Source: Henckelia pumila
Lineage: Eukaryota; Streptophyta; Magnoliopsida; Lamiales; Gesneriaceae
Length of the DNA stretch: 64,000 nt
Direction of reading: 5' to 3'
Assembly (NCBI RefSeq): GCF_033568475.1
Contig: NC_133120.1
Location: 84,152,151 to 84,216,150 of the forward strand
Positions 8,639 through 64,000 of the stretch are shown piece by piece. Position 1 is the first letter of the stretch. Every line of letters starts with the position of its first letter. The notes beneath the pieces are model-generated. The model did no database searches. It saw nothing but the letters and a program-made list of their open reading frames with translations, and was not told the origin of the DNA. The position numbers and the translations under genes were made by a program.

Positions 8639-9035
8639 TACATTTGGTCTTGTTATTTATATTTTTTTTTTACTTTTGGTCCTGTTAACAGTGAATTTGT
8701 ATTTTCAATCATGTAACTTGCATTTTTTTTCCATCTTTGTCATGTATACAGTGAAATTTCATCTTTAATCTAGTAACTTGTATATTATTTATATTTTTGT
8801 CCTTTAATTTGTAGTTATTTTAATTTTTTATTAGTCATAAAATGACCGAAAATAAAAGATATACAATTAAATGATCAAAATGAAAATATTACACAAGTTA
8901 GATGACTAAAATAAAATTTCATCGTACGTAACATGAGTCCATGACCAAAATGAAAAATGCATACAAATGACATGATTGAAAATATATAAAAAATGAAAAA
9001 ATGAAAATCAAATAAACTAAAAATGTTGTTTAATT
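8639..9035. repeat. second inverted-repeat element of the same style (IR-2)
   Basis: The left arm motifs TTTTCAATCATGTAACTTGC and TTTGTCATG reappear inverted near 8935-8985 (ACATGATTGAAAA, CATGACCAAAATG). The arms are more diverged than in IR-1 and the exact ends are unclear. Confidence 0.4.
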
Positions 9036-12716: not shown

Positions 12717-13035
12717 GAGGAAAATCTATTTTTGATTTTGGTCTTTTAACTTATTAATTTTTTGTATTGGTATACTAATTTAATTTTAATTATCAACAGT
12801 CAGCCGTGATCCAATTGTTTACCTGATAACTTGACAAGTCGGTATTTTCCAAAGTCATGCCATTATTTTCTTTTTTCATCACGCGCGCCAACATTTTTCA
12901 GTATGTACTACACCACAATTGAACCAAAATAACCCAAAATTAAAAGTTAGTGTATATACCAAAACCGAACTTTAAAAACATAGTGGACTGAAACCCAAAA
13001 TTCAACAAGTTAATAGACGAAAAAACAATTTTCTC
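12717..13035. repeat. inverted-repeat element (IR-3), Mutator-MITE style
   Basis: The left arm GAGGAAAATCTATTTTTGAT... pairs loosely with the right arm ...AAAACAATTTTCTCC. Internal TTTTGGTC/GACCAAAA-like words also occur in inverted order, as in IR-1 and IR-4. Boundaries are approximate. Confidence 0.4.
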
Positions 13036-17545: not shown

Positions 17546-17647
17546 GGTGATATCAATTGTTCCAGTATTCTTTTATGTTCAATTTTGTTACACCGATAGT
17601 TATTTTGACTAGTGAGGCTAATTTTTGTCATATTTGCACCAATTCAA

Positions 17648-17844
17648 TATAGAGATTTATGGAACTTAACTTTTATTGATATGAACAATGAGAATATATA
17701 GATACAAAAAAGTTTCTAGAAAGCGTAAGATATACACAATATAAAATCCTAACTTACATTGTGATATACATGTAAACTAATCAAGAGATAAGGCAAGTAG
17801 ATAAATACAAATATGAATAATATCTACAAGAATATTTGCTAACA
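17648..17844 (-). repeat. 3' LTR of copia-A
   Basis: 197 bp, reading TGTTAGC to CTCTATA on the reverse strand. A direct repeat of 22029-22225. Confidence 0.92.
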
Positions 17845-17856
17845 TGCCCCCTCAAG
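17845..17856 (-). other. polypurine tract of copia-A
   Basis: On the reverse strand TTGAGGGGGCA directly precedes the 3' LTR start TGTTAGC. Confidence 0.6.
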
Positions 17857-20800
17857 ATGGTGATTCATGAAAAACACCAATCTTGAACGTTAAATCAAGT
17901 AGGAGAGTAGAATTCAGTGGTTTGGTGAGCGCATCTGCTAGCTGATCTTGAGAAGAAACATGGGAGATACGCAACTGAGAGCGTTGAACCAACTCCCGAA
18001 CAAAATGATAATCCAGCGCTATGTGTTTCATACGAGAGTGAAAAATTGGATTATCACATAAATAAGTAGCCCTAATGTTATCACTATAGAAGACAGGCAC
18101 AGAGGGCAAAGAGATGCCAAGTTCACGAACGAGAGAGCTGATCCAAGTTATTTCGGCCGCACCAGATGCAATGGCACGATATTCAGCTTTAGTGGAGGAG
18201 CGAGCGAGCGACCGTTGCTTCTTTGAGCTCCAGGAAATTGGGTTGGAACCCAAGAAGATGATGTATGCAGCCGTAGAACACCTGTCATCAGGATTTCCAG
18301 CCCAACCAGCATCAGTGAAGCCATGCAGAGATAAAACAATATCCTTCCTGATATGAAGACCATAATCAAGAGTGCCATTGAGATAGAGAAGTAAGCGTTT
18401 AACAGCGCCCCAATGATGTTCCGAAGGAGAGTGCATGAACTGAGATAAACGGTTGACAGCAAATGCCCCATCAGGGCATGTAATAAGAAGGTACTGTAGA
18501 CTGCCAACAACCAGTCGATAACGAGATGCATCAGTGGAGGGAGCACCATCATGGAGAGATAGTGATGGCCCTATTGCCAGTGGTGTCTGAACTGGCTTGG
18601 CATTCTGCATATTGAAGCGGGCAAGAAGATCAATTACATACTTGCGCTGAGACAGAATGAGACCACTATTGTGTGGTATAACCTCGACACCCAAGAAGTA
18701 AGACAACTGCCCCAAGTCTTTGAGAAAGAACTTGGCAGCCAGTTGGGTGACGACATCAGCAACAAGGGACAGAGAGCTACCTGTAACAATCAAGTCGTCA
18801 ACATAAACTAAGAAATAAACTGTATCAGACTGACGACGGAGAATAAAGAGGGAGGTGTCAGAGAGGGAATTGGAGAAGCCAAGACCCAACAGAAAAGTGC
18901 GCAGTGCATGATACCATGCACGTGGTGCCTGCTTAAGACCGTAGATGGCCTTGCGGAGCTTATAAACATGTGTAGGAAGGTTACTGTCACAGAACCCGGG
19001 AGGTTGAACCATTAAAACCTCCTCATCCAAGGAGCCCTGAAGAAAAGCATTATTGACATCAAGTTGTCGCAAGGACCAGCCCTGCTGGACAGCAAGACTT
19101 AATATAAGACGAATAGTGTTTGGCTTTACGACAGGGCTAAAAGTGTCACTGTAGTCAATGTCAGGGCGTTGGTAGAACCCTTTAGCAACTAGACGAGCTT
19201 TGAATCGATTAACAGACCCATCAGGATTGCGTTTGATGCGAAATACCCATTTACAACCCACAAGATTCTGACTGTGATGAGAGGGAACTAGATCCCAAGT
19301 GCCATTGCGAAGCAGGGCATCAAATTCAAGAGACATAGCCGACCGCCATCTAGGATCTTTGAGGGCCAGAGAGACACAAGTGGGTTCAAGGTCAGGGGAT
19401 ACAGCTGTAGTGACAAGGAAGTATTTGGGGTTTGGTTTGCGAATATTAGGCTTGGAACGAGTGAGCATAGGGTGAGAGGCAGGCGGCGTGGGGTCATCTG
19501 GTGGGTTAGGTTGCGGCGGTGGTGAGGCATCCACGCGAGGGGGCGGGGCAGCCAACTGAACCACGTGTGATGATGGAGAGATCGTAGGAGTGGAGAGAGG
19601 AAGAAGGTGAGAGGGGACGGAGGGACAGGGAGGAGAGTCGGAAGAGGGCGAAGAGAGAGTAGAATAAGGGAAGACAGATTCTTCAAAACAAACATGACGC
19701 GAGACAAGGAGTTTGGTGGACACAAGATCAAAGCACAAATAAGCACTTTGAGTGAAGGAGTAGCCGAAAAAGACACATGGAGTAGATTTGGGTTCCATTT
19801 TATGCTTATTGTATGGTCGCAACCAAGGATAACACAGGCACCCAAAGACACGCAGTTTGTGAAAGTTTGGACATTGACCGAATAATTTTTCGAACGAGGA
19901 AGACATAGAGAGATTGGATTTTTGCATGCGATTGATAGTATAAGTGGCGACTGCAAAGGCAAAGGGACAGAAGGTGGGCGGAAGTGAGGCTTGGTGAAGT
20001 AGAGTGAGGCCAGTTTCGACAATATGATGATGCCGATGTTCAGCATACCCATTGTGTTCGGGCGTGTGAGGGGGAGTGGTGAGATGAGAGATGCCGTGTT
20101 TGGAGAGAAAATGACGTAGAGCCAGAAACTCTCCACCATTGTCAGTGTAGAGAGTGACAATTTTAGTTTTAAACTTGTTTTCAATTAGGGGAGTGAAAAC
20201 AATGAAAATGGAGAGGACATCAGATTAGCGTTTCATTGGATAGAGCCAGACATATTTTGTGTAATGATCGACAAAAATGACGTAGTATTTATCACCATCC
20301 ATGGAGAGGATGAGTGAGGACCATACATCAGAGAAAAGTAATTCCAAGGGATGGGAAGATGTAAGAGTAGAGTCATAAAAAGGTAACTTGTGGCTTTTAT
20401 TAATATGGCAAGAATTACAATTAAACTGTGAGAAAAATTTTGACGAAACAAGAAGGACTCTAGAAGTAACTAAATGACGAATAACTGCAGACGAAGGATG
20501 ACCTATTCTAGAGTGCCACACAGAGAGAGAGAGAGTCGGAGGTGGCACTGAGTGCGACAGGAGAGGACTTAGAGGAGACGACGATGATTGGCCCAACGTA
20601 AGTCCGTGCCTACAGTGCCCGGGGAAGAGTAGGGCCCCCGTGCGAAGATCCTTCACCTGAAATAAGGAGGACAAAAAAGTGACAGAAACATGGTTAGTGT
20701 GACAAAGTTGAGTGACCGAAATCATATTTTTTGGTCATATATGGTACACACAAAACATGGTCAAGTAATAATGGGTTGGTAAAAGTAGAAAGAAAAAGAG

Positions 20801-21925
20801 AGCCTTTGTGAGAAATATTCAAACCAGTGCCATTTCCAACAGTCATTGTGTCAGACCCATCATAAGGCGCATGTAGGGACAGATTGGACAGATCCGTGGT
20901 GACATGATGCGAAGCCCCGGAGTCAAGGATCCACTCACTCGAGGGAGGCACGCCCAAAGATTGGGACGCAGAGTGAGCTTGTGGAGGGGCATAGGTCGAA
21001 GTAGGGTGTTGCGACGAGGGCGACAGTGTCCAAGGCATATGCTGAAAGGTTGGACATCGATTGGCAGAGTGTCCCGGGGTGCCACGGAGCTGGCAATGGC
21101 CGAGATAGGGCCGCGGTGAATGGCTTGGGGGACCCGACAGGGGCCGAGGAGTCCACGGCATAGGGCCGCGGGAATCGCGGGGGTGGTGCTGGCCGAAGTA
21201 ACGGGGCTGACTGGGAGAGGCACCAGCAGCGGCAGGCTTGGCAGACCGGGAGGCCGGGAAGGCGGTGGTCGGGGCAGCAACGGCAGACATGCAAAGAAGA
21301 AGCTGAGCTTTGAAGTTCAATAGCTTCTCATGAAGTTCGTCAAAAGAAATCGATGTTTCACGAGCTTGAAGGGCGTGTGAGAGTTCCTTGTATGAATTGT
21401 CAAGACCATTGATAACTTTAAGAGTAAGGTCCTCGGAGTCGTAAGAGACATTCATCAGGGCGAGGGCATCAATAACAGCCTTGATTCCATGCATATAATC
21501 AGTGATGGATTTGGAGCCTTTGACGGAGTTGGCAAGCTGATTCTTAAGTTGAAGGATCCTACCACGGCTCGGGGCAGCATAGGTTTTTACTAGAGTCGAC
21601 CATGCATCAAACGATGTTTGGGATGCGGCTATAAAAGGGATGAGGGTGGGTGTGAGAGAGCCAGTGATGGCGTTTAATAAAACCTGATCCTGACGTACCC
21701 AAAGAGAGTAAGCAGGATTGGGAACAGTGGCTTCGGCCTGAGTGATGGTTTTGGGTGGGCATGGATGAGAGCCATCAACGAAACCCATGAGGTCATAGCC
21801 AAGGAGAAGAGAGCGAAACTGAAGGTGCCATGCGGAGTAGTTTGTGGATGTGAGCTTGAGAGGGATTTGGGCAGTGGCATTAATGGAGATTAGGATGATG
21901 TTTGGGAGACAGTAGTGACGGCCAT
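17852..21925 (-). pseudogene. copia-A gag-pol polyprotein, disrupted
   Basis: Gag starts at ATG 21925 (MAVTTVSQTSS) but a small indel and TAA break it within about 12 codons. The main gag frame continues at 21788-20694 and includes a CCHC-like zinc knuckle whose second Cys is Arg (CQLRGTPGHSANRC), then protease motif WILDSGASHH. A one-base slip in an A run near 20725 shifts the frame. Next come the pre-integrase HxxH..CxxC segment and integrase residues D (LLFSDVW), D (TDNGGEF) and E (PEHNGYAEH). TAA at 20225-20227 lies within integrase. The frame is then open to 17852, with RT (LVYVDDLIVTG) and RNase H (FTDAGWAG, STKAEYRA). With at least four lesions it cannot make its own full polyprotein, but the long clean RT/RNase H frame suggests recent loss. 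Confidence 0.88.
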
Positions 21926-22013
21926 GGTTGGGTGGTGTGACGAGGGTTGGCGGCGGCGGAAAAGGAGGGGTGGACGGCGGCAGACGGCTAGGTTAATTGG
22001 CGTGAGCCAAAAA

Positions 22014-22028
22014 TTGGCTTTGATACCA
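22014..22028 (-). other. primer-binding site of copia-A (initiator tRNA-Met)
   Basis: The reverse strand reads TGGTATCAAAGCCAA immediately after the 5' LTR, one base different from the common plant copia PBS TGGTATCAGAGC. Confidence 0.75.
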
Positions 22029-22225
22029 TATAGAGATTTATGAAACTTAACTTTTATTGATATGAACAATGAGAATATATAGATACAAAGAAGTTCCTAG
22101 AAAGCATAAGATATACACAATATAAAATCCTAACTTACATTGTGATATATATGTAAACTAATCAAGAGATAAGGCAAGTAGATAAATACAAATATGAATA
22201 ATATCTACAAGAATATTTGCTAACA
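22029..22225 (-). repeat. 5' LTR of copia-A
   Basis: 197 bp, near-identical to 17648-17844 and followed by TTCAA. Confidence 0.92.
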
Positions 22226-22230
22226 TTCAA

Positions 22231-23362: not shown

Positions 23363-25111
23363 CTATTTTACCAATTTATCGGTGTCTCGAACCAATTTTT
23401 TCGAAGGAAGCAAAATTGCCGCCACCGGTTTAATCTCAAAGCCACCACCTTCATCAATTATCAATCTGAAATCTTCAATATGAACCTTTGAATGGTGACC
23501 ACTTATAACAATAGTCGGAATTTTGGTCAATTCCTACAAAAATAAAAAATATAATGTTTTTTTTTCAAAACAAAAACAAAAACAAAAAGAAAAAACTGGT
23601 TTAGATCAAGGCAAATGGAGGGATTACCTCGGGGATATTCCAGACGTTCTTTCTTCCACTTAGAGCTTCGACTTTGGGGATTCTCGTGTCTTTGGACTTG
23701 AGATAATTTAGCTGCTCTTCAACACTTTTACCTTTCTCTAGCCCAGCGTGTACGGCGATTAATTTACAATTTTGCAACCCTTTTTCGGTTTCGATATACA
23801 CATTATCCTACAAAACCAAGAAAGCAAGTTAGTTAGAGAACTCCAAGATGTTATCGATCGCCCCTGAATAAGGGACGTTGAAAAAAGTGGAACAAAATGG
23901 AAGGTAGAGTCGATGCTCCCTCACCTCCTCATGGACCCAAACCAAATCAGCAAGAAATTTCTTGTGTTCTTTGGGGACTGCCTTCATCAAATCTGTAAAA
24001 TTCGAAACTCTTGGGATCAAACTATGGCCACTCAAACCTCAAAAACATCCACGATCGCATAAGTGTGGTGAAAAGATATGTTTTTAAATCAAATTAATGA
24101 AAATCCTTCCATGTACTCGTTAGGAAATTCAACTTCATTAAGCATGTGGAAATCATATGAGGGTAATCAAAACTTCAATACAACCGCATTTCCAACATGT
24201 CATCTAATTCTTCATCCATAATCTCATTTAGAACTAGGAAGAAAACACAATTCCTTCCTTCCTTCCATCCATCCATCCATCCGTTGTAGGAGTGTAAGAT
24301 GAACCAAATTGTCTAACGAGTTTTCAGCATCAGCTGGATTATTAGTCGTCACCAAGCTCGAACATTAACACGATTTCTCGAAAACTTCCGAGTTTAAGAT
24401 GTAATACTTGGTTCTTATAGAAAATTTGATAAAACTTCCCTTCATAGATATCTCAAACACACTCAATTTGGAATCATACAACACATGAAGGAAAACTCGA
24501 ATAGAGCAAGAAAAGACATCTTTTTCAACTAAAAATTAAACTCAAAGAAGCTCAAATATGAAAAAAAAAAAAAAAAAAAAACACATACCAGCAGATCCAT
24601 GGGGAACCCCATACGACTCAAAAGTAGGACCTGCGTCGTAAATTGAACCTTTGTACTCGGTTTTCTTGACATGGTTGAACCCCACCATCCTGCCAGCCCA
24701 CCTCCGCCCTTGCAAATGCATATTCTCGTAGCCTTCGCCTTTATACCACCCTTCTCTTTCCTCGTTCATCTCGTACTCTTTCCAGGTGTCGGAAAATCGA
24801 GACCCATCCGGTGGGCTCGGCAAAACCCCTAAGAATGCAGCGAATGCTAGGTCGTGATTGCCGCAGAGGAAGACGTGGGTCTGATTTGGATATTTCTTGG
24901 GCAAAGAAATCAAGAAATCGATCACTTTCTGGGTGTCAGGTCCCCTATCGCAATAATCACCCAAGAATATGATGAGTGTTGTGCTGAAATCAGATGGGCC
25001 TATGGTGATTTCGAGATTTGACCACAGATTCTCGAGCTTGTCCACGAATCCATGGATGTCACCAATGCCGCAGATGACTCTTGGTTTTGGTGCCGAAATG
25101 GGATCCGCCAT
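23363..25111 (-). CDS. RLPH2: Rhizobiales-like protein phosphatase RLPH2-type (tyrosine-specific PPP-family phosphatase)
   Basis: A complete gene in four exons with GT-AG introns: 25111-24589, 23992-23925, 23807-23628, 23533-23363. These total 942 nt and 313 residues, close to the family's roughly 310. Metallophosphoesterase motifs are GDIHG (about 17-21), GDYCDRG (51-57) and GNHD (84-87). Later motifs are AVHAGLEKG and [10 protein letters not shown], which supply metal-binding His residues. [10 protein letters not shown] is also family-like. I recognise the Arabidopsis RLPH2 pattern, a bacterial-derived PPP-family enzyme reported to prefer phosphotyrosine. No signal peptide or membrane segment is visible, which suits a cytosolic or nuclear protein. 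Intron 1 begins GTATGTG followed by a 20-nt T run on the coding strand. No coding lesion was found. Confidence 0.88.
24248..24292. repeat. (CTTC/CATC)n microsatellite
   Basis: Tandem TTCC and ATCC units lie inside intron 1 of the phosphatase gene. Confidence 0.7.
24561..24581 (-). repeat. poly(T) tract just inside intron 1 of the RLPH2-type gene
   Basis: About 20 A on the forward strand (T in the sense of the gene), seven bases beyond the 5' splice site. It makes an unusually U-rich intron start. Confidence 0.7.
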
Positions 25112-25460
25112 AGATTGATATGCTAGTGTAGTTTGTGTGATGGCTGAGAGAGTTAACAGTAATCGATCAATTTATTTATAATTATAATTATAATAATAAT
25201 AATTGAATTTGTGATTGGGAATTTGAAGGATAAATTATTTATTTTTTTATGGGTGGTGTGCGAAAAGTTTGATGAATTTGGACGGACAACTTTTAATATG
25301 TAAGCCGTCGGATCGAACATGAACGGATGGATCTAAGTCCAGTTCATGCATTCAAGATTCTACTTGTATTGCTCATCTTGGAACCAACGTGCAATCCGAG
25401 AATTACAACGTCTTATAGACGAAAGTAACCCATCTATAGTATTTCTTAATGAAACAAAAC
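25112..25460 (-). other. 5' flank of the RLPH2-type gene
   Basis: AT-rich with TAATAATAAT runs near 25190. No clear TATA box or conserved promoter motif was identified. Confidence 0.35.
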
Positions 25461-25479: not shown

Positions 25480-25762
25480 ATTGAAGCTCAGCAAATTTGG
25501 TTTTGATGGTTTTTTTTGCGGTTGAAGCCAACATATAGCACTTGGCTTTAAGATCATGGTCTCATCACGTCTCAAGCTTCTTCAGCTCATCAGGGCTGAT
25601 GTCCTTAGCAGCCTCTTTTGGAGGTGCTTTTGTTAGTACATATGTTAACTTCTCCGACGCAAGTACGACTTTTAGGTTTCTTAGCCAATCAGAGTAATTT
25701 GGTCCAGTAAGTTTGTTGTTATCGAGGATAACAGATAGTGGATTGCGATGAGCCATATTCAA
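25480..25762 (-). pseudogene. copia-B gag N-terminal fragment
   Basis: It reads MNMAHRNPLSVILDNNKLTG then NYSDWLRNLKVVL, the usual start of a plant copia gag (UBN2/DUF4219-like). A stop follows KKLET at 25565-25567; the next codons still read DHDLKAKCYMLAS, a conserved gag continuation. It then dissolves into unrelated sequence, so this is a broken 5' fragment. Confidence 0.7.
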
Positions 25763-26046
25763 AATTTTTACTGAAATTAGAAACAGATAAAATGTAATTG
25801 ATTATTTAATCAATTTAATAAGACATAAAGTATGGTCTTTTATTTTATGAATTATCCTCCCACTGTTTTTGACATTTTCACCACCCTTTAATAAAAATGA
25901 GAAATCATATTTTCTCAATGAGAACATGAAGTCCAACTGAATAATTTTGATTCCTAAATAATATCAGACAATCTCAATTCCCAAAGGTTGTTTCCAATTA
26001 CATCCAATGTAACTTTCATGTTATTTGCCTCATGATTATATATGAG

Positions 26047-26235
26047 CCCAATAATATGACTCCTCATATAAATTTCATGTCAAACCGACCCATCAATGTC
26101 GAGTCACAGTGGACGGTCCCATAAGATCCCCCAATAATATGAGCCGAAGTTATGGGAGTTCCACATAACTCACATCAGACATGTCAGTGGAAGTCACAAC
26201 TTTTCGATATCCAGGACTCCCCAATAATATGAGCC
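26047..26235 (-). repeat. periodic leader motif of copia-B (three copies of GGCTCATATTATTGGGG-like)
   Basis: Forward-strand complements at about 26047, 26129 and 26219 (CCCCAATAATATGAGCC or a near variant) are spaced about 82 and 90 bp. The same motif occurs four times at similar spacing in the leader of copia-C. Confidence 0.75.
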
Positions 26236-27239
26236 AGACCTGATCATGGGTAGCATTCATCATGCAACCACCGTTGATGGAAGACAAGAATCATTAAACA
26301 ATTTAATTTTCCCTTTTTAACGGTCTTGATATAAATTTTGATCATATTCAAAATAAGGGATTTTAATTTTGAAATTTATCTCATCTTTTGAATATTTCAA
26401 AATCGTGCCATGTTTGTAGTATGTTTTCCGGATTCATGCAATTTTATTATCGTATAACATACATACTATTTTACCATATATATCACATATATATAATAAA
26501 TATTTAGGATGATCGATCACCGAGAGCTATGACGATCCTTGTTTTACAGAAACAAGGATCTAGGTCGTACCCTAGGTAATGCAGGTATGCAATGCAATCC
26601 TATTACATTGTATCATTTATTTTACACATCTTCGGTCTTCAATTCTCATCATCATCTTCATCACCTTCGATCTCCCACTAATTCTAATGTCATACATTAA
26701 AATTTCATGACACATAAAGGGATACATCACTAGGGTGGGGATTGAGCTATAGAACAAACTCATTATGCAATGATAATTCATTATTACAAAACCGAATGAT
26801 AAATAAATCATAGCATTCACCTAGCACATTGGTCATGACTCTCGATCATCTACGGAATAATAATATAATATATTATATAATCCATCAACACATGTATCTT
26901 GTAATTTTATCATCAACCGCCACAATTATTCAATGAATTAACAAATTCAATAAATTCTTTTATTTAATTTATAATTAATTCAATAATAATTGATTTCTTA
27001 TAAATCTTTTTTACTATAAATAATTAGAATCATATTCCAATTATTTATTTCATAAGAAAATTTTATAATTTTATCAAAAAATTAATTCCAAGGGCAAATT
27101 TACCAAATTTTCATAAAATTTTAATTTACCCAAATTAATTTAAAAATTAAAATAAAAATCATCAAATAGAAACCTTTTCGATCACACGATCGGGACTGCT
27201 CGAAACACTTTCGTACAGCCGATCTCAGTCCAAGTACTA

Positions 27240-27385
27240 CGCGAACAATTCGGGCAGCTGCCCGAACAATTCGGGCAGCCGGTACTGTTCACGTGAACAG
27301 TACCCGAAGTACTGTTCACATGTGAACAGTATGCGCGCGGGCTGCCCGAACAATTCGGGCAGCCGGTTACTGTTCACGAGCTGTC
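27240..27385. repeat. GC-rich palindrome cluster in copia-B leader
   Basis: Perfect palindromes occupy 27249-27266 (TTCGGGCAGCTGCCCGAA), 27282-27303 (22 bp, centre CACGTG) and 27310-27331 (22 bp, centre ACATGT). GGGCTGCCCGAACAATTCGG-type words recur between them. The surrounding DNA is very AT-rich. Confidence 0.85.
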
Positions 27386-27498
27386 CGAACTTTTTTTTTT
27401 ATTTTTTATTATGCGTCTGTTTTTTTTCAAAAAAATTTTTTATGCGGTTAGAAATATAAATACTCAACATGAAATAAACCATACAATACAAAGAACCC

Positions 27499-27511
27499 GG
27501 CTTTGATTCCA
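27499..27511 (-). other. primer-binding site of copia-B
   Basis: The reverse strand reads TGGAATCAAAGCC one base after the LTR end ATCTCAACA, a variant of the initiator tRNA-Met complement. Confidence 0.6.
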
Positions 27512-27512
27512 C

Positions 27513-27918
27513 TGTTGAGATACCGGATTTTTATCGTGCCCAAAACGCAGCGAAAGTTTAAATTATTATTTTGATGTTGAAAATATGTTTGGACACTCGT
27601 ATGATTTTAGGGGATTAAAAATACCTTTAGTGAATAAATTCACTGGACTCCAACTATTTCGAGAAATTCGAAAATAGCTCTTGTTGTATATCCCTACGAA
27701 CGATCTACTAGATTTTTCCTCCTTTCTTCAAATCAGATCTATAACTGAATTTTTTGTTTCTCTTCTAAATCGCACATAAAAAATAGAAGAGATTTAAATT
27801 GAGATTAAAAAGAAAATTGATCACATCAATTCTTTTATGAATCTTCTGCCGAACGAATTAAGAGAGAGCAAAGAAGGGAGCAAAGTTTCTTCTGAAAATC
27901 GAGATACCTTCTCTCTCT

Positions 27919-51773: not shown

Positions 51774-54015
51774 AGTTGGAAGCGGCGGAAGCTCTGGCGG
51801 GGCTGGCTCGCTCCGCCTCCTTGCCCGGCGAGTTTGAACGACGGCAAATGGATACTGAAACACTGGTAGTTTCCTCCCAAGTCTCGACTCACCAGGTTAT
51901 ATATATATTCCATCTGAAAAGCCTTACCCTTTCCGCTGTTTAATGTTGGAATTTTTGAACTTAGTCGGCAAATACTCCATATATTAATTAATTATTTCGT
52001 TTTTGTGTTTTGAGAATCTTCATGAAAGTTTTTGAATTAAGTAGTAGTTTAGTAATTTCATGCACTATGGTTTTTTAGGTTTTTCCTCTTTGATCATCTT
52101 CTAGTTTCTGTTCAGTAACATATATATTTCATTTTTGCCGAAAAAATAGATTGTTATCAACTAGTAGCTAGCCCTTGTCATGTTTTTTTTTAATTTTTTT
52201 TTTTTTTTTTTTTTCAGTATCAGGCGTTCGGTGGCCAACATGAGTTTTCTGGAAAAACTTCTACCATGGTTGCAGCAGCTGGCCTCACAAACACTTTGAA
52301 AATTGTGGATACAAATAATATTAATCAATCAAAAGTACTACTGCGTGGCACTGTGAGGCATCATTTGACAGAGGTACGTACATGAACTTGGTTCATTATA
52401 TTTACTATTGTCGATATATGACTCTTCGTTGGGTAAATCTATATATATATATATATGAATACCATTCAGGCTGAGAAGGAAGCACGAAGGCTTCGTCGTG
52501 TCCAAGCAAATAGAGAGTCTGCTCGGCAAACCATTCGTCGCAGACAGGTCGCTAGCTAGCTAGCTTCATCTGGTTTTTGTTATAAAATTTTTACCATCGA
52601 TCTTTACTTGCTTATTATATATAAGGTGTATATATCAGTAGAAACTTCTTTTAATTAATGGTTTAATTTAATTTTGTGGTTTGCCATGAGATACATTGTG
52701 ACATGAAATTTAGAAAGTGAAGCGCAACCCTTGCGTCGACTAATTATTAATTTGAGTCAAAAAGATATATCCATTGATGGTTAGAACTAATTAAACTTGA
52801 TTAATTCAGGGTGAAAGCTGACATTTATCCTGTATTTAGGCACACAAGAAAACCGCAATCGTATGATATTAGTGGCACAACCGATATTTGTCATGAACAC
52901 ATAAACTAGGCAGCCAGCATGGTTTTTTGTGTTATCTTGCATGCATTTTTATGGTCTGTTTATTAGTGTAATTGGTGATTGAGATAGAACATTTTACCGA
53001 TTCGTTTGCTCAACAGGCTATGTATCTGGAGTTAACGGGGAAGGCGGCTAACCTGTCGATGGAGAATACATATTTGAAACAAGTGGGTGATGTTTTTTTC
53101 CCCTAATTATTGTTGTTTTAATTAATTTTGCCTTATCATGATAATGGACGATTGTACTCAAGTCTATTCATCTGGATGATAATTCTTTTAAGCAGGAAAG
53201 AGACCTAGCAGTGAAGAAATATTACTACTTGAAAGATAAAAATCAGTTTTTGAAAGCACAGGTAAATCGGGGATATATATGTAAGATGAATAGCTATCTT
53301 TTCATTGGAATTTCAGTCCCGCCCCACGGTTCTTTTGCATTTGCAGATGGCTAAAAGAAAGCTTGCCAAAGCAGGGCATATACGCGACAAGCCAGAGTCT
53401 TCGCTTACAGAAATATCGAGTTCTTCTGCTGCCATCACCACTCCGATTTGTTTAAACAACAGGGCTTCTTTACTGCCTTTCTTCTGGCCCTTCAATTCAC
53501 AACGTCCATCTGATACAGATTTCACAAATGCATCACAAATTCGGATACCGATGTGGAATGAATCCTGTTTGAGTCAAGGACAAGATTGCTCCACCGCGAT
53601 AAATAAACCCAGACCTCCTTACTTCATATTGCCAGTACCTTGGTTACTTCCTTTCATCTCGCCCGACGGTAAACTAGAATTCCATCCCGCCACTAAAGAT
53701 CAACAACACGAGCCTCCACCGATTCATCAGTGTCAAATGTGTTCATCCTTCTCTACTCTATTGCATGAAGACAGGGGGATCGGGGTCTATAATCCAGCTA
53801 GAGTTATACCTACAAGCAATGGTGTCGGAGCTAGATTTCGTTTTCCACGAGATTACACGAGACACGGTTTCTCAGATAAGAATCACGGCGGGCGAATCAT
53901 CTCCTCTTCAAGAAAACCGGGCAACGATGCCATTGCTGCGACCGAGGCCAGGAGGAAGAGGAGAGAATTGATGATGATGAGGAGTATCCATTCCCCTGAT
54001 GCGCATATTCAATAG
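51734..54015 (+). CDS. bZIP transcription factor with Ile in the conserved basic-region Arg position
   Basis: Six exons, all in-phase GT-AG: 51734-51895, 52218-52373, 52470-52547, 53017-53082, 53196-53261, 53347-54015 (398 residues). The N-terminus has LTFELEAAEALAGLARSAS. The bZIP begins at about residue 107: EKEARRLRRVQANRESARQT then IRRRQ, followed by leucine repeats through ENTYLKQ, ERDLAVKKYYYLKD and NQFLKAQ. The canonical N-x7-R/K signature is N-x7-I here. I recall such Ile variants in a small plant bZIP group, where DNA binding is altered. The long C-terminal exon is Ser/Pro-rich with CQMCSSF and ends in a basic ARRKRRELMMMRS. I chose ATG 51734 because the frame upstream has no ATG. 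An out-of-frame ATG at 51699 opens a 24-codon uORF overlapping it. Confidence 0.85.
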
Positions 54016-54327: not shown

Positions 54328-54667
54328 GGGAAAATAGTTTTTTGATCTATTAATTTGTTTAATTTTTTTTTGTTTTTATTTATAATTTTTTAAAGTTTGG
54401 TTTCAGTACATTAACTTTTAATTTACAATGATTTTGGTTTAACTGTTGATGTGGCACCGGAAAATGCTGATATGATTTTGGAAAATGATGGTATGACATC
54501 AAAAAATGATGACATAACATCGGAAAATGATGACGTGTCAAATTGTCACGTCAGCACTTGGACCAAAATTAACGAAAATTAAAATTTAATGTATCAAAAT
54601 CAAACTTCGAAAAGTTAATTGACCAAAATCGAAATATAAATAATTAATGGACCAAAAAAATATTTTC
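54328..54667. repeat. inverted-repeat element (IR-4) with internal ~21 bp tandem units
   Basis: The left arm GGGAAAATAGTTTTTTGATC pairs with the right arm ...GGACCAAAAAAATATTTTC. Inner words TTTTGGT/ACCAAAA and AGTTTGGTTTCAG/CAAAATCAAACTTC are also inverted. The centre (about 54451-54536) has four to five tandem units of about 21 bp around GGAAAATGATG. Confidence 0.55.
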
Positions 54668-57014: not shown

Positions 57015-60000
57015 ATTTTCACCTTGATTCTTTCAGGTTGAATGCTGCTCTCCATCCTAGCCTCCTTGGCTAATTTCCAATCACCGCATTAACTAAGTCC
57101 AAACATTTCTTGAACTTAGCATACGGCAGTGACTTCGTCATAGCATCTGCAGGGTTTTCTTTCGATGCTGTCTTTACAAGGATCACATCTTTTTTTTTAA
57201 TCACATCTCTCACGAAATGCATCTTCACATCTATGTGTTTCGATCGTTCATGATAGACTTAGTGTTTCGTCAAGTGTATTGCACTTTGATTGCCACAGTG
57301 TACTACTACTTGATCTTGTTTTACACCCAACTCCGCTATCATTCCTTTTAACCACAATCCTTCTTTTATGGCCTCAGTAACAGCTACGAACTCTGCCTCA
57401 GTGATAGAAAGGGCAACCATTGACTGTAGATTTGACTTCCAGGTGATCGCTGTGCAATAAAAGGTGAACACATAACCAGTCAACGACTTTCTCGTGTTTA
57501 AGTTCCCAGCAAAATCTGAATCCACATATCCAACTACCGGATCAATCCCATCTTGCTGTTTCTCAAACTTCATCCCCAGCCCATTTGTGTTTATGAGATA
57601 TCAGAGAATCCACTTCAGAGCTTCCCAATGATATGTTCTCGGGTTAGCCATAAATCTCGACACAACACTGATTGCGTATGCCAGATCAGGCCTACTACAC
57701 ACCATTCCATATATGAGACTCCACACTCCACTAGCATATGGAATACCAGCCATCTTCATCTTGTCTTCCTCACTTTCAGGTGATTGACTCGCAGATAGCT
57801 TCAAATGTTGTCCCAGAGGGGTCAAGACAGATTTTGCTTGATTCATGTTATACCGCAGAACAACCTTCTTCAAATAGTTCTTCTGACTCAGATGAATCTC
57901 CTGTCTTTTCCTGTTTCTCACTATGTCCATGCCCAGAATTCTCTTTGCTTCACCCAGATCTTTTATCTCAAACTCTGTATTGAGCTGTTCTTTCAAAGAT
58001 GATATATATGTCCTACTTTTACTTGCAATCAATATATCATCAACGTAAATCAGTAGGTACAAGATAACCTGCTCATCATCCTTCTTCAGATAGACACATC
58101 TGTCATATTGGCTTCTCACAAAACCAATACCAATCATGAACTCATCAAACCTCTTGTTCCATTGCCTCGGACTCTGCTTCAGTCCATACAATGATTTTCT
58201 CAGTAATCGTACTTTGTTCTGGGTTTTCTGATGTATGAAGCCCTTTGGTTGTTCCATATAAATGGTTTCTTCCAGGTCACCGTGTAGAAACGCAGTTTTC
58301 ACATCCATCTGCTCAAGCTCCAAATCTAGTTGGTTCACCAGTGCTAACATAATCCGGATGGAACAATGTTTGACCACTGGAGAATAGACCTCATTAAAAT
58401 CTATCCCTTTTACTTGACCAAAACCCTTTGCAACCAATCTTGCTTTATACTTGATCTGATCTGTACCAGGAGTTCCTTCCTTCTGTTTATAGATCCACTT
58501 GCATCCCAATGTCTTTTGATGCTTCGGTCTGTCTACTAGCTTCCAGGTTTGATTCTTCTCAAGTGAGTTCATCTCTTCATTCATAGATTCAATCCACTTG
58601 TTTTTCTGTTTACTCGCCATAGCTTTATCATATGTATTCGGCTCTGAATACTCCATCTCCTCAGCTACTGTAAGTGCATACCAAGCCAGATCAGCTTCAC
58701 CAAACCTCTTAGGAGCTCTGATCTCCTTTCTGGTTCTGTCCCTTGCAAGATTATAAGTGCTTAAGTCCTCTTTTGGATCACTCGCTGTCATATCATCATC
58801 TTGCATCTCATTTGACTCTTCATCTGGCACAGAAGACTCCACCTCAATCGGTAGTTTTTCATTCACATTGATCTGATTGTCCTTTCCATCTGTATTCATT
58901 TTATACCCAAGTTTGGATTCATCAAACTTCACATCCCTGGTGTTGAAGCTCTTTGGACCTCTTGACTCCAGGTTCCAAACTTTATAACCTTTCGCACCAT
59001 CCGGATACCCAATGAATATACATCTGACTGCCCTTGCTTCCAACTTGTCTTGTTTCAAATGAGCATATGCAAGACATCCGAATACCCTCAAGTTTGAGTA
59101 GTCTGCAGGTGTTCCACTCCACTTTTCCATTGGTGTCTTGAAACCAATCGCGCTGGATGGACACCTATTGACCAAATAGCATGCAGTAGATAATGCTTCT
59201 CCCCAGAAGGACTTAGGTAGAGAAGCATTGATCAACATACATCTGACCCTTTCCAAAAGAGTTCTGATCATTCTCTCTGCCAGGCCATTTTGCTGTGGCG
59301 TTCCTGCCACTGTTCTGTGTCTGGTAATGCCTTTCTCCTTACATATCTTGACAAACTTATCTGATAAGTATTCCAGCCCATTATCTGTTCTCATGTGTTT
59401 AACTCTTCGATCACTCTTGTTCTTAACTGCCAGCAGCCATTCTCTGAACTTGTCATAAGCTTCATCCTTAGTCTTTAAGATGAATATCCATACTCTCCTT
59501 GAGTAATCATCTATCAAAGACATGAAGTATCTGCCTCCATCATGAGTTTCTGTCCGAGAAGGACCCCATAGATCTGAATGAATGTAGGCCAATGGTTGCT
59601 CAGTTGTGTGACTTCCTTGACCAAACGATACTCTTTTTGATTTCCCATGAGCACAACTATCACATAACTCCAATGATTCGATCTTATCTCCACTTAACAG
59701 ACCCTGTTTAGATAGCTCATGTAATCCCTTCTCACTTACATGTCCAAGTCTCAGATGCCATAGTTTGGTTCTGTCTTGCTGTTCCTGAATACTTGCTGTA
59801 CTTCCAATAATCGTTTCACCTTGTAGTACATATAAGAGGTTTCTTTTTACAGCCTTCATAATAACCAGAGATCCTTTTGACACTGAGATACTTCCTGCTC
59901 CTGATTTGAATGAATATCCCTGAGCATCAAGCGTTCCCAATGATATCAAGTTTATCTTCAACTCAGGCACATACCTCACCTTGGTGAGTACTCTGTCGAT

Positions 60001-60510
60001 CCCATCATGCATCCTTATTCTGATATTTCCAGAGCCCTTTATTCTGCATGACTGATTATTCCCCAACAGTACCATGCCCTGATCCGATTCCTCAAATTTT
60101 TCAAACCAAGATCTTATAGGACACATGTGAAAGGAGCATCCTGAATCCAATATCCATTCGTGGTTTTGATCACCTTTAGAAACCACCAATACTTTTTCTG
60201 AGTCATATCCATCTGTAGCTACGGCCAGAGTACCATCTTCTTTGGGTTTTTCCTGCTGCTTCCCTTTCTTTTCCGGACAATCTCTTCGCAGATGTCCAAC
60301 CTTCTGACAAGCATAACACTTCTTATTACCCAAGTTTCTGTTCTGGTATCTTCCTTGACTCTTCGATCTGGACTTTGGCCTGTATTTTCCACTTGATGTC
60401 CTCTTATCACTTCTGCCTCTCGCCATAAGACCTTCTCCATGTGATTCAGTATTTGTGTTTGACTTTCTCTGAAGTTTCTTGGATTGAATAGCAGACATTG
60501 AAAGAGTGGG
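56211..60510 (-). mobile_element. Tork-like Ty1/copia element, 5' end interrupted by another copia
   Basis: Reverse strand: gag tail and pol (60525-57070), polypurine tract AAGGTGAAAAT, then a 3' LTR. The gag N-terminus, primer-binding site and 5' LTR are absent because copia-C begins at about 60510. They may lie beyond the right edge of the window, on the far side of copia-C. Domain order (zinc knuckle, protease, integrase, RT, RNase H) and sequence style place it near the Tork/Tnt1 group. Confidence 0.82.
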
Positions 60511-60525
60511 TGCCCGGTTAGCCAA
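57070..60525 (-). pseudogene. Tork-like gag-tail and pol polyprotein with two nonsense codons
   Basis: The long frame 60525-57601 contains the zinc knuckle CYACQKVGHLRRDC, protease WILDSGCSFHMC, pre-integrase WHLRLGHVSEKG..CDSCAHGK, and integrase D (YIHSDLWGP), D (MRTDNGLEY), E (PQQNGLAERM). RT follows with AFLHGDLEE and LLIYVDDILIA. TGA at 57601-57603 (family Arg) precedes RNase H ([31 protein letters not shown]). TAA at about 57259-57261 (family Gln) lies before VYHERSKHIDVK. The C-terminus ends at TAG 57072-57070. Both stops fit C-to-T changes (CGA, CAA). Apart from these and the lost gag start, the polyprotein is intact, so decay is recent. Confidence 0.88.
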
Positions 60526-62379
60526 CTTGTGGCTAAGGGCTTTTATGACTCTATGTAAAATAATCTTTTGTTTAATATAATTTACACTTTTATAATGGCA
60601 TTGACTTTATCTTTCTTCATATTGTTATATTATGATATACTATTGTTGTTTTGATAAAGACCTTGAATATACTATAGTGTATGTAAGATGTGGTAGCACA
60701 TGGGGATGGCTATCATGAAACACATCTTATAGTCACTGTATATTCTAAACTGTTCCTAGTCAATTGAGCCGTCCGCAAATAAGGATAAGGATCGCTCGAG
60801 ATTGAGACTAGCATTTGCGATGCCGAGTACCACGTTTCATTGATATGGAATATAGAGATGTTCAAAGCATACAAATGGATATTCATATGATGAATGATCG
60901 AACTACCCTATTCGAACTTTCCAAGTGGTTATCATTTATCGAGTGGATAAAGTCCGCGGTTTTGGTTGTACACCATTAGTCCTTATTACTTGAAACATCA
61001 TTGAGACTCTATATGCTAGTACTGTACTTTGACTCATTTACCGACTCTATTGGGGTCATCAGGTATCGGGATTGGATACAATTACGACACATATAGGATT
61101 CGATGCTTTGTTGTCAAGGATTCATCACATACTTGTGAGTGTGGATATCCTATGCGATCTGAGTAGATATTAGTATGACGAATCTCTGGCTAGAGTACAT
61201 GATGTGTTTTAGGTTAATAGGTTTTTCTAGTAACACATGCGATGTCACTATTTGATCTCCAAGATGTAATGCATAGTTATCGAATCTCGAACGACTCTCG
61301 ATATACCAATGGTTGTTGATTCGATCGGGATATATGGATGAAGGGACCGTACTGTACGCTAACCAAAATCTACTGGTTCTTGCAGGCACTATCAGTAATA
61401 CCTAGGGAATCATGGGGCGATGTTGCTAGGCGCTCTTACCATGATTCGATGGGTAATTCGGAAATTGTTGTTCCGAGTCACAAGGAATTGTGAGCCCACA
61501 GCTAGCTGTATTCCTGAACCATTGAGGGTTACACAAGTAATGAATTACTAAAACCCCATAGAGATAGTTAAATTTAAAGAGTTAAATTTAATGAAAGAGA
61601 AGTTGGACTTCTTAACTAAAGGGAGTGAGATTTCCTAAAATGACATAGGGATGGACATTTTTGGAAATCACTGAATTCGGATTCAGAAAAATTATCTTGA
61701 CTCTAAAAGATGCAGAAATGGTTTCTGTGCACATTGGTGAAATCAGTTTATCAATCGGAGTCACGATGAATTTTATATTAATTTTTATAACAACAGGTTT
61801 GGCTTGTTGGGCTTAAGTTATGGATTGTGGGCTTTAAGGAGTTAGAGTCCTGATACAATTATAACTAGAAATTATCTATAAATAAAGGTGTTGGGTTCAA
61901 AAATTAGACACATTGTATATTGCAATTTTTGAAAATACACTCTAGAATTTTCAAGGGGATTTTCGAAATCCTCTATCCCTTTTTGGAGAAAATTCGACTT
62001 GTGATTTTTGTGAAAAATTACAAATCGAATTAACAGATCATATATGTTTATTCTCTACGTAAAACTTCTGATTGATTTCTAGTGCAGTCAATCAGAGGGT
62101 TTCTGTTTTTCGTTCGTGAACCTAATTTCGGAGTTAGATCGTGACTGTCATCGGTTCCCGGGATTTACAAGAAGAGCAGATTAAATTCTGTTGGAGTCCA
62201 CGATCAAGCCTTTGCTTGACGAGGTAAAAATTTAATTGTGATTTTATTTTTACTTGAACAAATTTAATAGTAAAAGTTTTGATACCCATATATGGAATCG
62301 TTCCATATAATAAAATAAAATTTTAAACTTCCGCTGCACCGGGTATCAATTCTTAATTGATCTGAACACGTTTCCAACA
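60506..62379 (+). repeat. 5' LTR of copia-C (about 1.87 kb)
   Basis: The right end, ..GTTTCCAACA before the PBS, is firm. The left end near GAGTGGGTGCCC (60504-60511) is inferred from where the Tork gag frame is lost. CTATAAATAAAG at about 61876 is a likely TATA box. A short palindrome TTAGCCA..TGGCTAA lies at about 60518-60536. Confidence 0.6.
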
Positions 62380-62380
62380 G

Positions 62381-62393
62381 TGGTATCAGAGCC
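62381..62393 (+). other. primer-binding site of copia-C (initiator tRNA-Met)
   Basis: TGGTATCAGAGCC one base after the LTR end. A standard plant copia PBS. Confidence 0.85.
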
Positions 62394-62415
62394 AGGTTGC
62401 TCAGATCAAACGATT

Positions 62416-62542
62416 AAGGGCAGCGCACGGCGCTGCCCAGGGCAGCGACGATCGCTGCCCAAGGGGCAGCGATGGGCTGCCCAGCCCGGGCCCCTTTTTG
62501 GGGCGCGGGCTGCCTGGGATTGTCCCGGGCAGCCCGGGAAAA
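62416..62542 (+). repeat. GC-rich palindromic block in copia-C leader
   Basis: Repeated GGGCAGC/GCTGCCC words in both orientations (for example GGCAGCGACGATCGCTGCC) and CCCGGGCAGCCCGGG, in a leader that is otherwise AT-rich. It lies about 35-160 bases after the PBS, comparable to the block in copia-B. Confidence 0.8.
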
Positions 62543-63489
62543 AATTATTTTTAATTTTTAATTAAAATTTTAATTTTTTGAAATTCTAGTTTTTGATCCG
62601 ATCAAAAATTATTTTGATTGGTTCACGAGGCATCGGATCGAATTGTTCGAGTCCGAAAATTTTAAAATTGATTTTTGGATAAATTTGAATTTTTGGAAAA
62701 TTTATAAATTTTATCCGTTAAATTAAATTTTATAAAATTAATTATTTTGGTACAATTGATGATAAGATATGATCTTATGGATGGATAAGATAAAATATGA
62801 TTTTATCTTTTAAATTATGATGCCTTTGCATGTTTATCCAATTATTTAATTATTGAATTAATTAATGGATAAAGGATGATCGATTGTCATGACCAATGTT
62901 TTATGTGTATGTTAGGTGATTTACATTTGTCTTATTGTTGTTGGTGTTTATTAATGAGCTTAGTTTATAGCCCAATATGATTGTCATATGCAATAAAAGT
63001 GGGCCTGGTTTATGGCCCGTTTCTACCCCTAAAAATGTATCCCATATTTGTCATCGAAATTTATTGTAAATTTATTAGACTTAGTGGGAGACAAAGATTT
63101 GAAGAAATGATGGGCCCAGCAGACAATGAAGACCGAAGAAATGTAAATTGGAAGCTCAATGTAATAGGATTGCATTGCATACTTGCATATCACCTAGGAT
63201 TGGACTTAGACTCGTGATTGGCAACCACGGGTCGATTAGTTAATGGGATCGATCATCCTTAAATAATATATGATATTATTGATGTATGCATGTTTAGACT
63301 AAATTGTATGAATCCCGCAAGCATACATAAATTGCATGATGAGACAAATTTTCAAAATTAAAAATCTCTCATTTTAAATATGATTTAAAATTGATATCAA
63401 GATTAATAAAAAGGGAATTTAAATATTGTTTAAATATTCCTACCTTCCATCAACGATCAATGTATGAGATGCTACCCGCGGATACGATC

Positions 63490-63775
63490 CGGCTCATATT
63501 ATTTGGGGGGCCCGTTCGTCGAAAAGCTGTACATTGGATCGACACATGTTGTAAGTTGGGTGGAACTCCCATGGGATTGGCTCATATTATTGGGGATCCA
63601 CATGGCGACCGTCCATCATAACTTAATATTGATGGGTTATCTTGACATGTCACAATAAACGGCGTCATATTATTGGGCCCTTATTGGACATGAGGTAAAA
63701 ACATGGAGGTTACTTTGGAAGTAATTGGGCTCTACCTTTTGAAAATTATGGTTGGCTGATATTATTCGGGATCAT
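63490..63775 (+). repeat. periodic leader motif of copia-C (four copies)
   Basis: GGCTCATATTATTTGGGG (about 63491), GGCTCATATTATTGGGGA (about 63579), CGTCATATTATTGGGCCC (about 63663) and GGCTGATATTATTCGGGA (about 63754), spaced 83-91 bp. Three related copies lie in the copia-B leader. Confidence 0.8.
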
Positions 63776-63962
63776 GATTTGTCAATTGGACTCCATGTTC
63801 TCACTAAGGAAAACAGTTTCCCGTTTTCACTAGAGGGTAGTGAAATCGTTAAAATAGTGGGAGTGTAATTCATAAAATTAAAATTCGCCATATTTTATGT
63901 CTTAGTAAATTAATTAAACAATCATTGATTATTATCTGTTTCCTTTTCAGTATACTATTACA

Positions 63963-64000
63963 ATGACTTCTCGTAATCCACTGTTTTCAATTCTCGAACA
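63963..64000 (+). CDS. copia-C gag start, partial at window edge
   Basis: ATG at 63963 opens MTSRNPLFSILE, alignable with copia-B gag (NPLSVILD). Only about 12 codons are in the window. Confidence 0.6.
   Translation, partial: MTSRNPLFSILE

Follow-up and report, generated by a model that had tools for sequence, protein, structure and literature searches.

A covarying RNA domain with four near-identical tips in the leaders of plant copia-type elements, within a predicted 5'-UTR intron

The leaders of two copia-type elements in a 64,000-nucleotide stretch of Henckelia pumila DNA (contig NC_133120.1, positions 84,152,151 to 84,216,150; hereafter the window) hold a conserved, covarying RNA structure with four near-identical tips. 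The structure lies upstream of gag in a leader that looks like a 5'-UTR intron, and we consider it probable that splicing takes place. Element C is on the forward strand and element B on the reverse strand (Table 1), and relatives of their leaders were sought in the 884.7 Mb of this one genome.

The original prediction had delimited both leaders, and these limits hold, with the PBS and the gag ATG located in each. In C, a copia-type gag follows the LTR and the PBS, and the PBS adjoins the LTR end; the first 200 residues read on locus L003, which is C's own place in the genome, match Retrotran_gag_2 (PF14223, E 1.5e-21). The PBS of C is presumably a match to the initiator tRNA-Met, and that of B differs from it by two changes. 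The gag start of B has no Pfam match, and a search with it found no relative. Because the two leaders are 71% identical over about 1 kb and the LTR stretches compared have one 26-bp match in common, at a conserved U5 site, we regard B and C, judged by sequence, as two different families of one lineage whose leaders have diverged less than their LTRs. A segment of about 26 nt (CAATGTAATAGGATTGCATTGCATAC, at 63157-63184 and its B counterpart) is identical in the two elements amid the 71% leader identity.

Table 1. Positions of the features of elements C and B in the window
Feature	Position	Strand	Basis or remark
C small hairpin (TCAAGC CTTT GCTTGA) and end of predicted exon 1 in LTR	62200..62223	+	sequence, fold
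C predicted 5'-UTR intron, 1727 nt	62224..63950	+	GT 62224-62225, AG 63949-63950
C PBS, GTGGTATCAGAGCC	62380..62393	+	sequence
C leader	62381-63962	+	from PBS (GTGGTATCAGAGCC, starts 62380) to gag ATG 63963
C GC-rich hairpin array	62415..62545	+	fold z -8.1; unit number varies between copies
C domain I, arms m1, m2, m3	63441..63697	+	alignment fold, covariation
C motif 1	63491..63507	+	one extra T-type mismatch in this copy
C motif 2	63579..63595	+	17-mer match
C motif 3	63662..63678	+	17-mer match
C domain II, spacer hairpin and arm m4	63701..63799	+	alignment fold, covariation
C motif 4	63754..63770	+	17-mer match
C gag start, Retrotran_gag_2	63963..64000	+	exits window; domain read on locus L003
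B predicted 5'-UTR intron, 1854 nt	25771..27624	-	donor 27624, acceptor AG 25772-25771
B PBS, GTGGAATCAAAGCC	27499..27512	-	sequence; two changes relative to C PBS
B leader	27511-25757	-	from PBS (GTGGAATCAAAGCC, starts 27512) to gag ATG 25756
B GC-rich hairpin block	27180..27400	-	fold z -10.7
B four-armed RNA domain	25923..26286	-	motif matches, alignment, covariation
B motifs	26235-26219, 26145-26129, 26062-26046, about 25969-25953	-	
B gag start	25568..25756	-	ends after 63 codons

Upstream of gag, the core TCATATTATT/TGATATTATT is present in four copies in each leader. The 17-mer motif, at three mismatches or fewer, has seven matches in the window against 0.17 expected (none of 100 shuffles reaches seven), all of them inside leaders B and C; at an eighth site (in B, core at 25966) the core is present with more mismatches, and there are therefore four motifs per leader. 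The periodic motif predicted before gag thus recurs, at spacings of 88, 83 and 92 in C and 90, 83 and 93 in B. The core columns are identical between B and C in 40 of 40 positions, compared with 67% of 268 spacer positions. Outside the motif, neighbouring units of one leader are not alike (12 comparisons, z -1.7 to 1.7), and corresponding units of B and C are alike in order (z 6.3 to 8.9, four of four). A recent tandem duplication, which the original prediction had named as a possible origin of the periodicity, is excluded because neighbouring spacers are unrelated and the B and C units match in order. A 25-mer search gave no matches, viral contigs gave no lead, and two exact motif matches (L001 and L002) have flanks without visible likeness to the leader.

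A pattern made of two cores (m3 to m4) has 12,404 exact matches in the genome (6258 + 6146; reversed control, 0), and a pattern shutting out the C type has 505 (258 + 247; control, 0). We assembled 61 leaders, those of the two window elements plus 59 from loci retrieved from the genome, comprising 30 C, 20 D, 6 E, 4 B and 1 F, with the group labels assigned by the letters after m3 and D a remainder class. All four cores are present in 32 of the 35 leaders examined, at -169 to -174, -80 to -86, 0 and +92 to +98 relative to m3, so that family members keep the motif array and it is seen in other families as well. The pattern that found most leaders fixed m3 and m4 and left m1 and m2 free; among 21 aligned leaders, rows not chosen by m1 or m2, m1 is unchanged in all 21, and m2 in 20. 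In the first 28 of 40 listed C copies, which were found by similarity, one of 1119 core cells is changed, whereas 0.86% of cells are changed over the whole hairpin region and 1.68% in mid-leader.

In most cases the sequences on either side of a core pair with each other, so that the core forms the tip of a hairpin. From its base, such an arm consists of a lower stem, one to three bases (mostly G) left unpaired on the 5' side, three to four further pairs and the loop UAUUAU. The m2 stem, with pairing assigned by eye, is CCCATAA/TTATGGG in B, CCATGGGAT/ATCCaCATGG in C and CCATGATTTT/AAAAcTCATGG in a D copy (L045); the sequences differ, yet pairing is kept. Of the 108 cells in the eight hairpins of the window, 75% pair, and the covariation score is 0.472 compared with 0.192 ± 0.048 in shuffles (0 of 500); the number of double-change pairs in this set is not significant (9 versus 6.9; 79 of 500), and sliding by +1 gives 10 such pairs against 9 unslid. 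When single arms are folded with the motif fixed, four of the eight fold better than shuffled flanks (fraction at most 0.014), whereas B1 (0.56), B4 (0.51) and C1 (0.99) do not and B3 reaches only 0.12. A covariance model scores its eight training arms at 30-42 bits; the next site in the window (52300-52336, reverse strand, 21.3 bits) was rejected as an AT-rich chance match outside any leader. The iron-responsive element and the PP7 coat-protein hairpins have a short upper stem, a 5'-side bulge and a six-base loop, and the arms resemble these in layout only; the sequences and systems differ.

An alignment of 21 of the 61 leaders, hand-picked for coverage (5 C, 3 B, 8 D, 4 E and 1 F), folds with 106 pairs, 36 of which are changed on both sides, and addition of the m2 tip by hand brings the structure to 110 pairs. 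Each core caps one arm of the folded domain, which is about 360 nt long. On these 21 leaders, the same sequences from which the 110-pair structure was derived, 96.4% of 2302 cells pair, and there are 206 double-change cells, whereas shuffles give 68.8 ± 7.5 (0 of 500) and slid versions no more than 29. The covariation score is 0.320 versus 0.194 shuffled, a measure of further pair types lies below the shuffles (86 versus 95.0), and the fold energy of the 21 leaders, drawn from five groups, has a z of -13.5 relative to 200 column-shuffled alignments. The spacer hairpin has paired variants even within the C type (TTACTTTGGAAGTAA and TTGCTTTGGAAGCAA). A simple tandem duplication, or a site bound as DNA, would suit the regular spacing of the motif, but the spacers of neighbouring units are unrelated and the stems pair and covary; a DNA-only motif is rejected on the latter ground, and we regard this reading as very improbable. 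The leader thus contains a conserved RNA structure of the kind expected for a packaging or dimerisation signal. Rfam 15 has no match at gathering score in the window, and the 17 matches in 62350-64000 (E up to 5) are all under their gathering scores.

Further candidate helices are present upstream of the four-armed domain, with double changes at 17 of 131 pairs in 11 leaders, and one of them is long-range. A candidate long-range helix at 62874-63260, GGATGATCGAT ... ATCGATCATCC, might enclose a further structured domain 5' of the four arms.

The second component of the leader is a GC-rich block after the PBS, and the island predicted there is confirmed, with a GC content of 71% in C (62415-62545) and 53% in B (27400-27180) within stretches of 35% and 32%, and folding z-scores of -8.1 and -10.7 computed against dinucleotide shuffles. 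Its description as a block of palindromes is not borne out: perfect 8-base palindromes number 3 in B (0.86 expected) and 1 in C (1.43 expected), and the excess is therefore one of hairpins. The prediction that the palindromes differ between elements while the layout is kept stands as to the layout; that they are wholly different sequences is rejected, as GGGCAGC/GCTGCCC words and a TTG-loop hairpin are common to the B and C blocks. The last C hairpin, GGGCTGCCCGGGA-TTG-TCCCGGGCAGCCC, is recognised in 23 of the first 28 of 40 listed C copies, two of which have a changed pair kept on both sides and others one-sided changes; the B counterpart is GGCTGCCCGAA-TTG-TTCGGGCAGCC. Among the 32 of 61 leaders whose retrieved piece includes a PBS (that of the other 29 does not), GGGCAGC or GCTGCCC occurs within 420 nt after the PBS in 31 (17/17 C, 11/11 D, 2/2 E and 1/2 B), the B copy L069 having neither word in its first 420 nt, so that the block too is kept by family members.

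Even among young copies the GC array is quick to change, with one to six GCTGCCC words per block in the first 28 of 40 listed C copies, which are about 98% alike elsewhere. Because unit number differs between copies so similar, some of the block may arise from hairpin turnover in reverse transcription and not from selection. Template switching at hairpins can yield paired changes without selection, and since it can perfect palindromes, the paired changes in the GC block are weaker evidence for selection than those of the four-armed domain. The suggestion of selection on structure is strongly supported mainly for the periodic block, where stems covary; in the GC block the layout is kept, but unit number varies and turnover is possible. 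The block on its own might be a functionless hairpin satellite, grown and kept perfect by template switching in reverse transcription, a reading for which the variable word number and this established mechanism both speak, but which has to be set against the same words at the same place in B, C, D and E (31 of 32 leaders); we think it a serious possibility that falls somewhat short of probable. Unit number in the array (62415-62545; L003-L030) might also mark template switching or subfamilies.

Both leaders are bounded by candidate splice sites, a feature absent from the original prediction; their quality was judged by eye against the consensus. The predicted intron of C contains the end of U5, the PBS and the leader. 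In the first 28 of 40 listed C copies, AG/GTA at the donor and the AG of the acceptor are invariant (28/28), and the 12 nt around the donor vary at 6.6% of cells compared with 4.1% in U5. The donors are GACGAG/GTAAAA in C, CTAAAG/GTATTT in B and CGAAG/GTGTAA in the B copy L092, CTAAAG/GTATAA in E (L090, L091) and TGATAG/GTAAAA in D (L086, L089 and L064, the last being the same as L094), and in all four groups the donor follows a small hairpin of differing sequence (by eye in D and E). The D copy L045 has no donor in the stretch examined, and L093, fetched for a B LTR, had none recognisable and was dropped. At the 3' end, the leaders of B, C, D and E have TTTCAG/TA or a near form just before gag; a strict acceptor pattern is found in 20 of 35 leaders (among the other 15, L031, L061 and L070 hold TTTCAG/TA) and a looser one in 55 of 61. 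The distance from acceptor to ATG, taken to the first ATG from two bases past the acceptor and so skipping an in-frame ATG one base past it in E, is 10-16 nt in 10 of 12 leaders, the two outside being L005, where the script missed the acceptor, and L061, where the gag ATG is lost.

The distribution of ATGs is consistent with this intron. With transcription starts assumed about 30 nt past TATA-like sites, there are before the donor 1 ATG in 319 nt (C), 2 in 382 (B), 0 in 320 (E, L091), 1 in 320 (B, L092) and 2 in 320 (D, L094), compared with 6.1-7.5 expected in the five LTRs; depletion is weak in D over 380 nt (4 versus 7.0). From donor to gag there are 49 in C and 56 in B (36.5 and 40.1 expected), and between PBS and acceptor 44-59 in each of 11 leaders. 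Apart from L045, then, conserved donor and acceptor sequences go together with an ATG-poor exon, as expected of a 5'-UTR intron. The spliced C junction has no copy in the genome at up to two mismatches; spliced RNA would lack the PBS, and the absence of such a genomic junction therefore neither proves nor refutes splicing.

We propose that the leader is a cis-acting RNA module inside a 5'-UTR intron, the spliced RNA serving as messenger and the unspliced RNA being kept for packaging, and we see the case for this as about evenly balanced. Transcription would start in the 5' LTR, and splicing from the LTR donor to the acceptor just before gag would remove about 1.7-1.9 kb. The spliced RNA, with few upstream ATGs, would be the gag-pol messenger; the unspliced RNA would retain the PBS together with the GC hairpins and the roughly 360-nt four-armed domain. 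The four tips would act as a multivalent site whose most likely ligand is the Gag of the element itself, in the packaging of genomic RNA, and the GC hairpins would help two RNAs to pair near the PBS. On balance the four-armed domain is likely to mark unspliced RNA; that it is bound by Gag rather than by a host protein falls a little below an even chance, and a role of the GC hairpins in dimerisation is suggested more tentatively. Equally tentative is the wider picture of a plant copia lineage in which PBS, GC hairpins and four arms all lie in a 5'-UTR intron and splicing sorts the RNA, spliced being messenger only and unspliced genome only, with the domain a new RNA family and a multivalent UAUUAU platform for Gag or a host export factor.

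The same structure evidence is shared by packaging and by two other readings. If the domain serves export or splicing control, its tips would bind a host protein, either to allow nuclear exit of unspliced RNA in the manner of constitutive transport elements or to restrain use of the acceptor, which lies about 150 nt further on; its position in the predicted intron near the acceptor fits this, repeated identical loops suit a host protein, and retroelements with such export elements are described in part of a recent review (PMC12786077), but the GC hairpins by the PBS are left unexplained, and we consider this reading unlikely. More improbable still is internal ribosome entry, with the domain starting gag translation on unspliced RNA. 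Structured RNA does lie just upstream of gag, and the 44-59 ATGs in each of the 11 leaders would block scanning of an unspliced messenger; a conserved donor and acceptor are, however, a simpler way past those ATGs, and about 150 nt that we take to be poorly structured, together with the acceptor, lie between the domain and the ATG. This reading is weakened because conserved splice-site sequences bound the leader.

The preferred reading, packaging of an unspliced RNA, has partial counterparts in known systems. As set out in the portion of the source drawn on here, the retroviral 5' leaders of HIV, MLV and MMTV have palindromic dimerisation hairpins and packaging signals around the PBS and donor (PMC5874298). 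The leaders described here are similar in having GC-rich hairpins near the PBS and donor and several stem-loops before gag; unlike the retroviral ones, their four arms share one loop sequence, and the predicted intron ends at gag, which would come from spliced RNA. The barley copia element BARE also has a long leader and two RNA classes, in separate pools from two promoters, one translated and one packaged, and the relevant passages of that 2013 paper give its splicing as the only Copia case shown besides copia itself (PMC3735527); BARE has two promoters and a small gag intron, whereas the intron predicted here spans LTR to gag. Plant LTR elements are generally without introns, with Ogre and EVADE as exceptions, according to the section cited from a 2025 review (PMC12786077). 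EVADE, an Arabidopsis copia element, resembles the present elements in splicing (here predicted), but it splices within gag-pol to make Gag only, and the intron predicted here precedes gag. The RNA transport elements of MusD and IAP, in the same section, are likewise structured RNAs in LTR elements and act on unspliced RNA; those are animal elements, and the likeness is one of description. The passages on retroviruses, BARE, and EVADE and Ogre in these three sources describe no leader-spanning intron (PMC5874298, PMC3735527, PMC12786077). Titles and abstract openings, mostly outside the subscription journals, include no report of this leader or of an LTR-to-gag intron in plant copia. The keeping apart of translated and packaged RNA is described for few plant retrotransposons, and a covarying domain with four tips, whose two-core signature is so abundant in this genome, gives experiments on packaging, export and splicing in plants a defined target and supplies a model for searching other genomes.

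Several other features of the window were noted. A long copia polyprotein frame (57601-60606, reverse strand; zinc knuckle, integrase and RVT_2) ends near the sequence leading into C, and C may have inserted into it. A second copia element on the reverse strand (17647-22226) has a 199-bp LTR pair (17647-17845 and 22028-22226) that is 97.5% identical and a coding frame in several pieces. A reading frame adjoining the truncated end of B (24542-25171, reverse strand) is what we take, from a sequence motif, to be a phosphoesterase-type gene. Finally, imperfect long inverted repeats at 54330-54667, 8700-8984 and 12730-13033 are 66-68% self-complementary and are possibly foldback or MITE-like elements; 12730-13033 matches 54330-54634.
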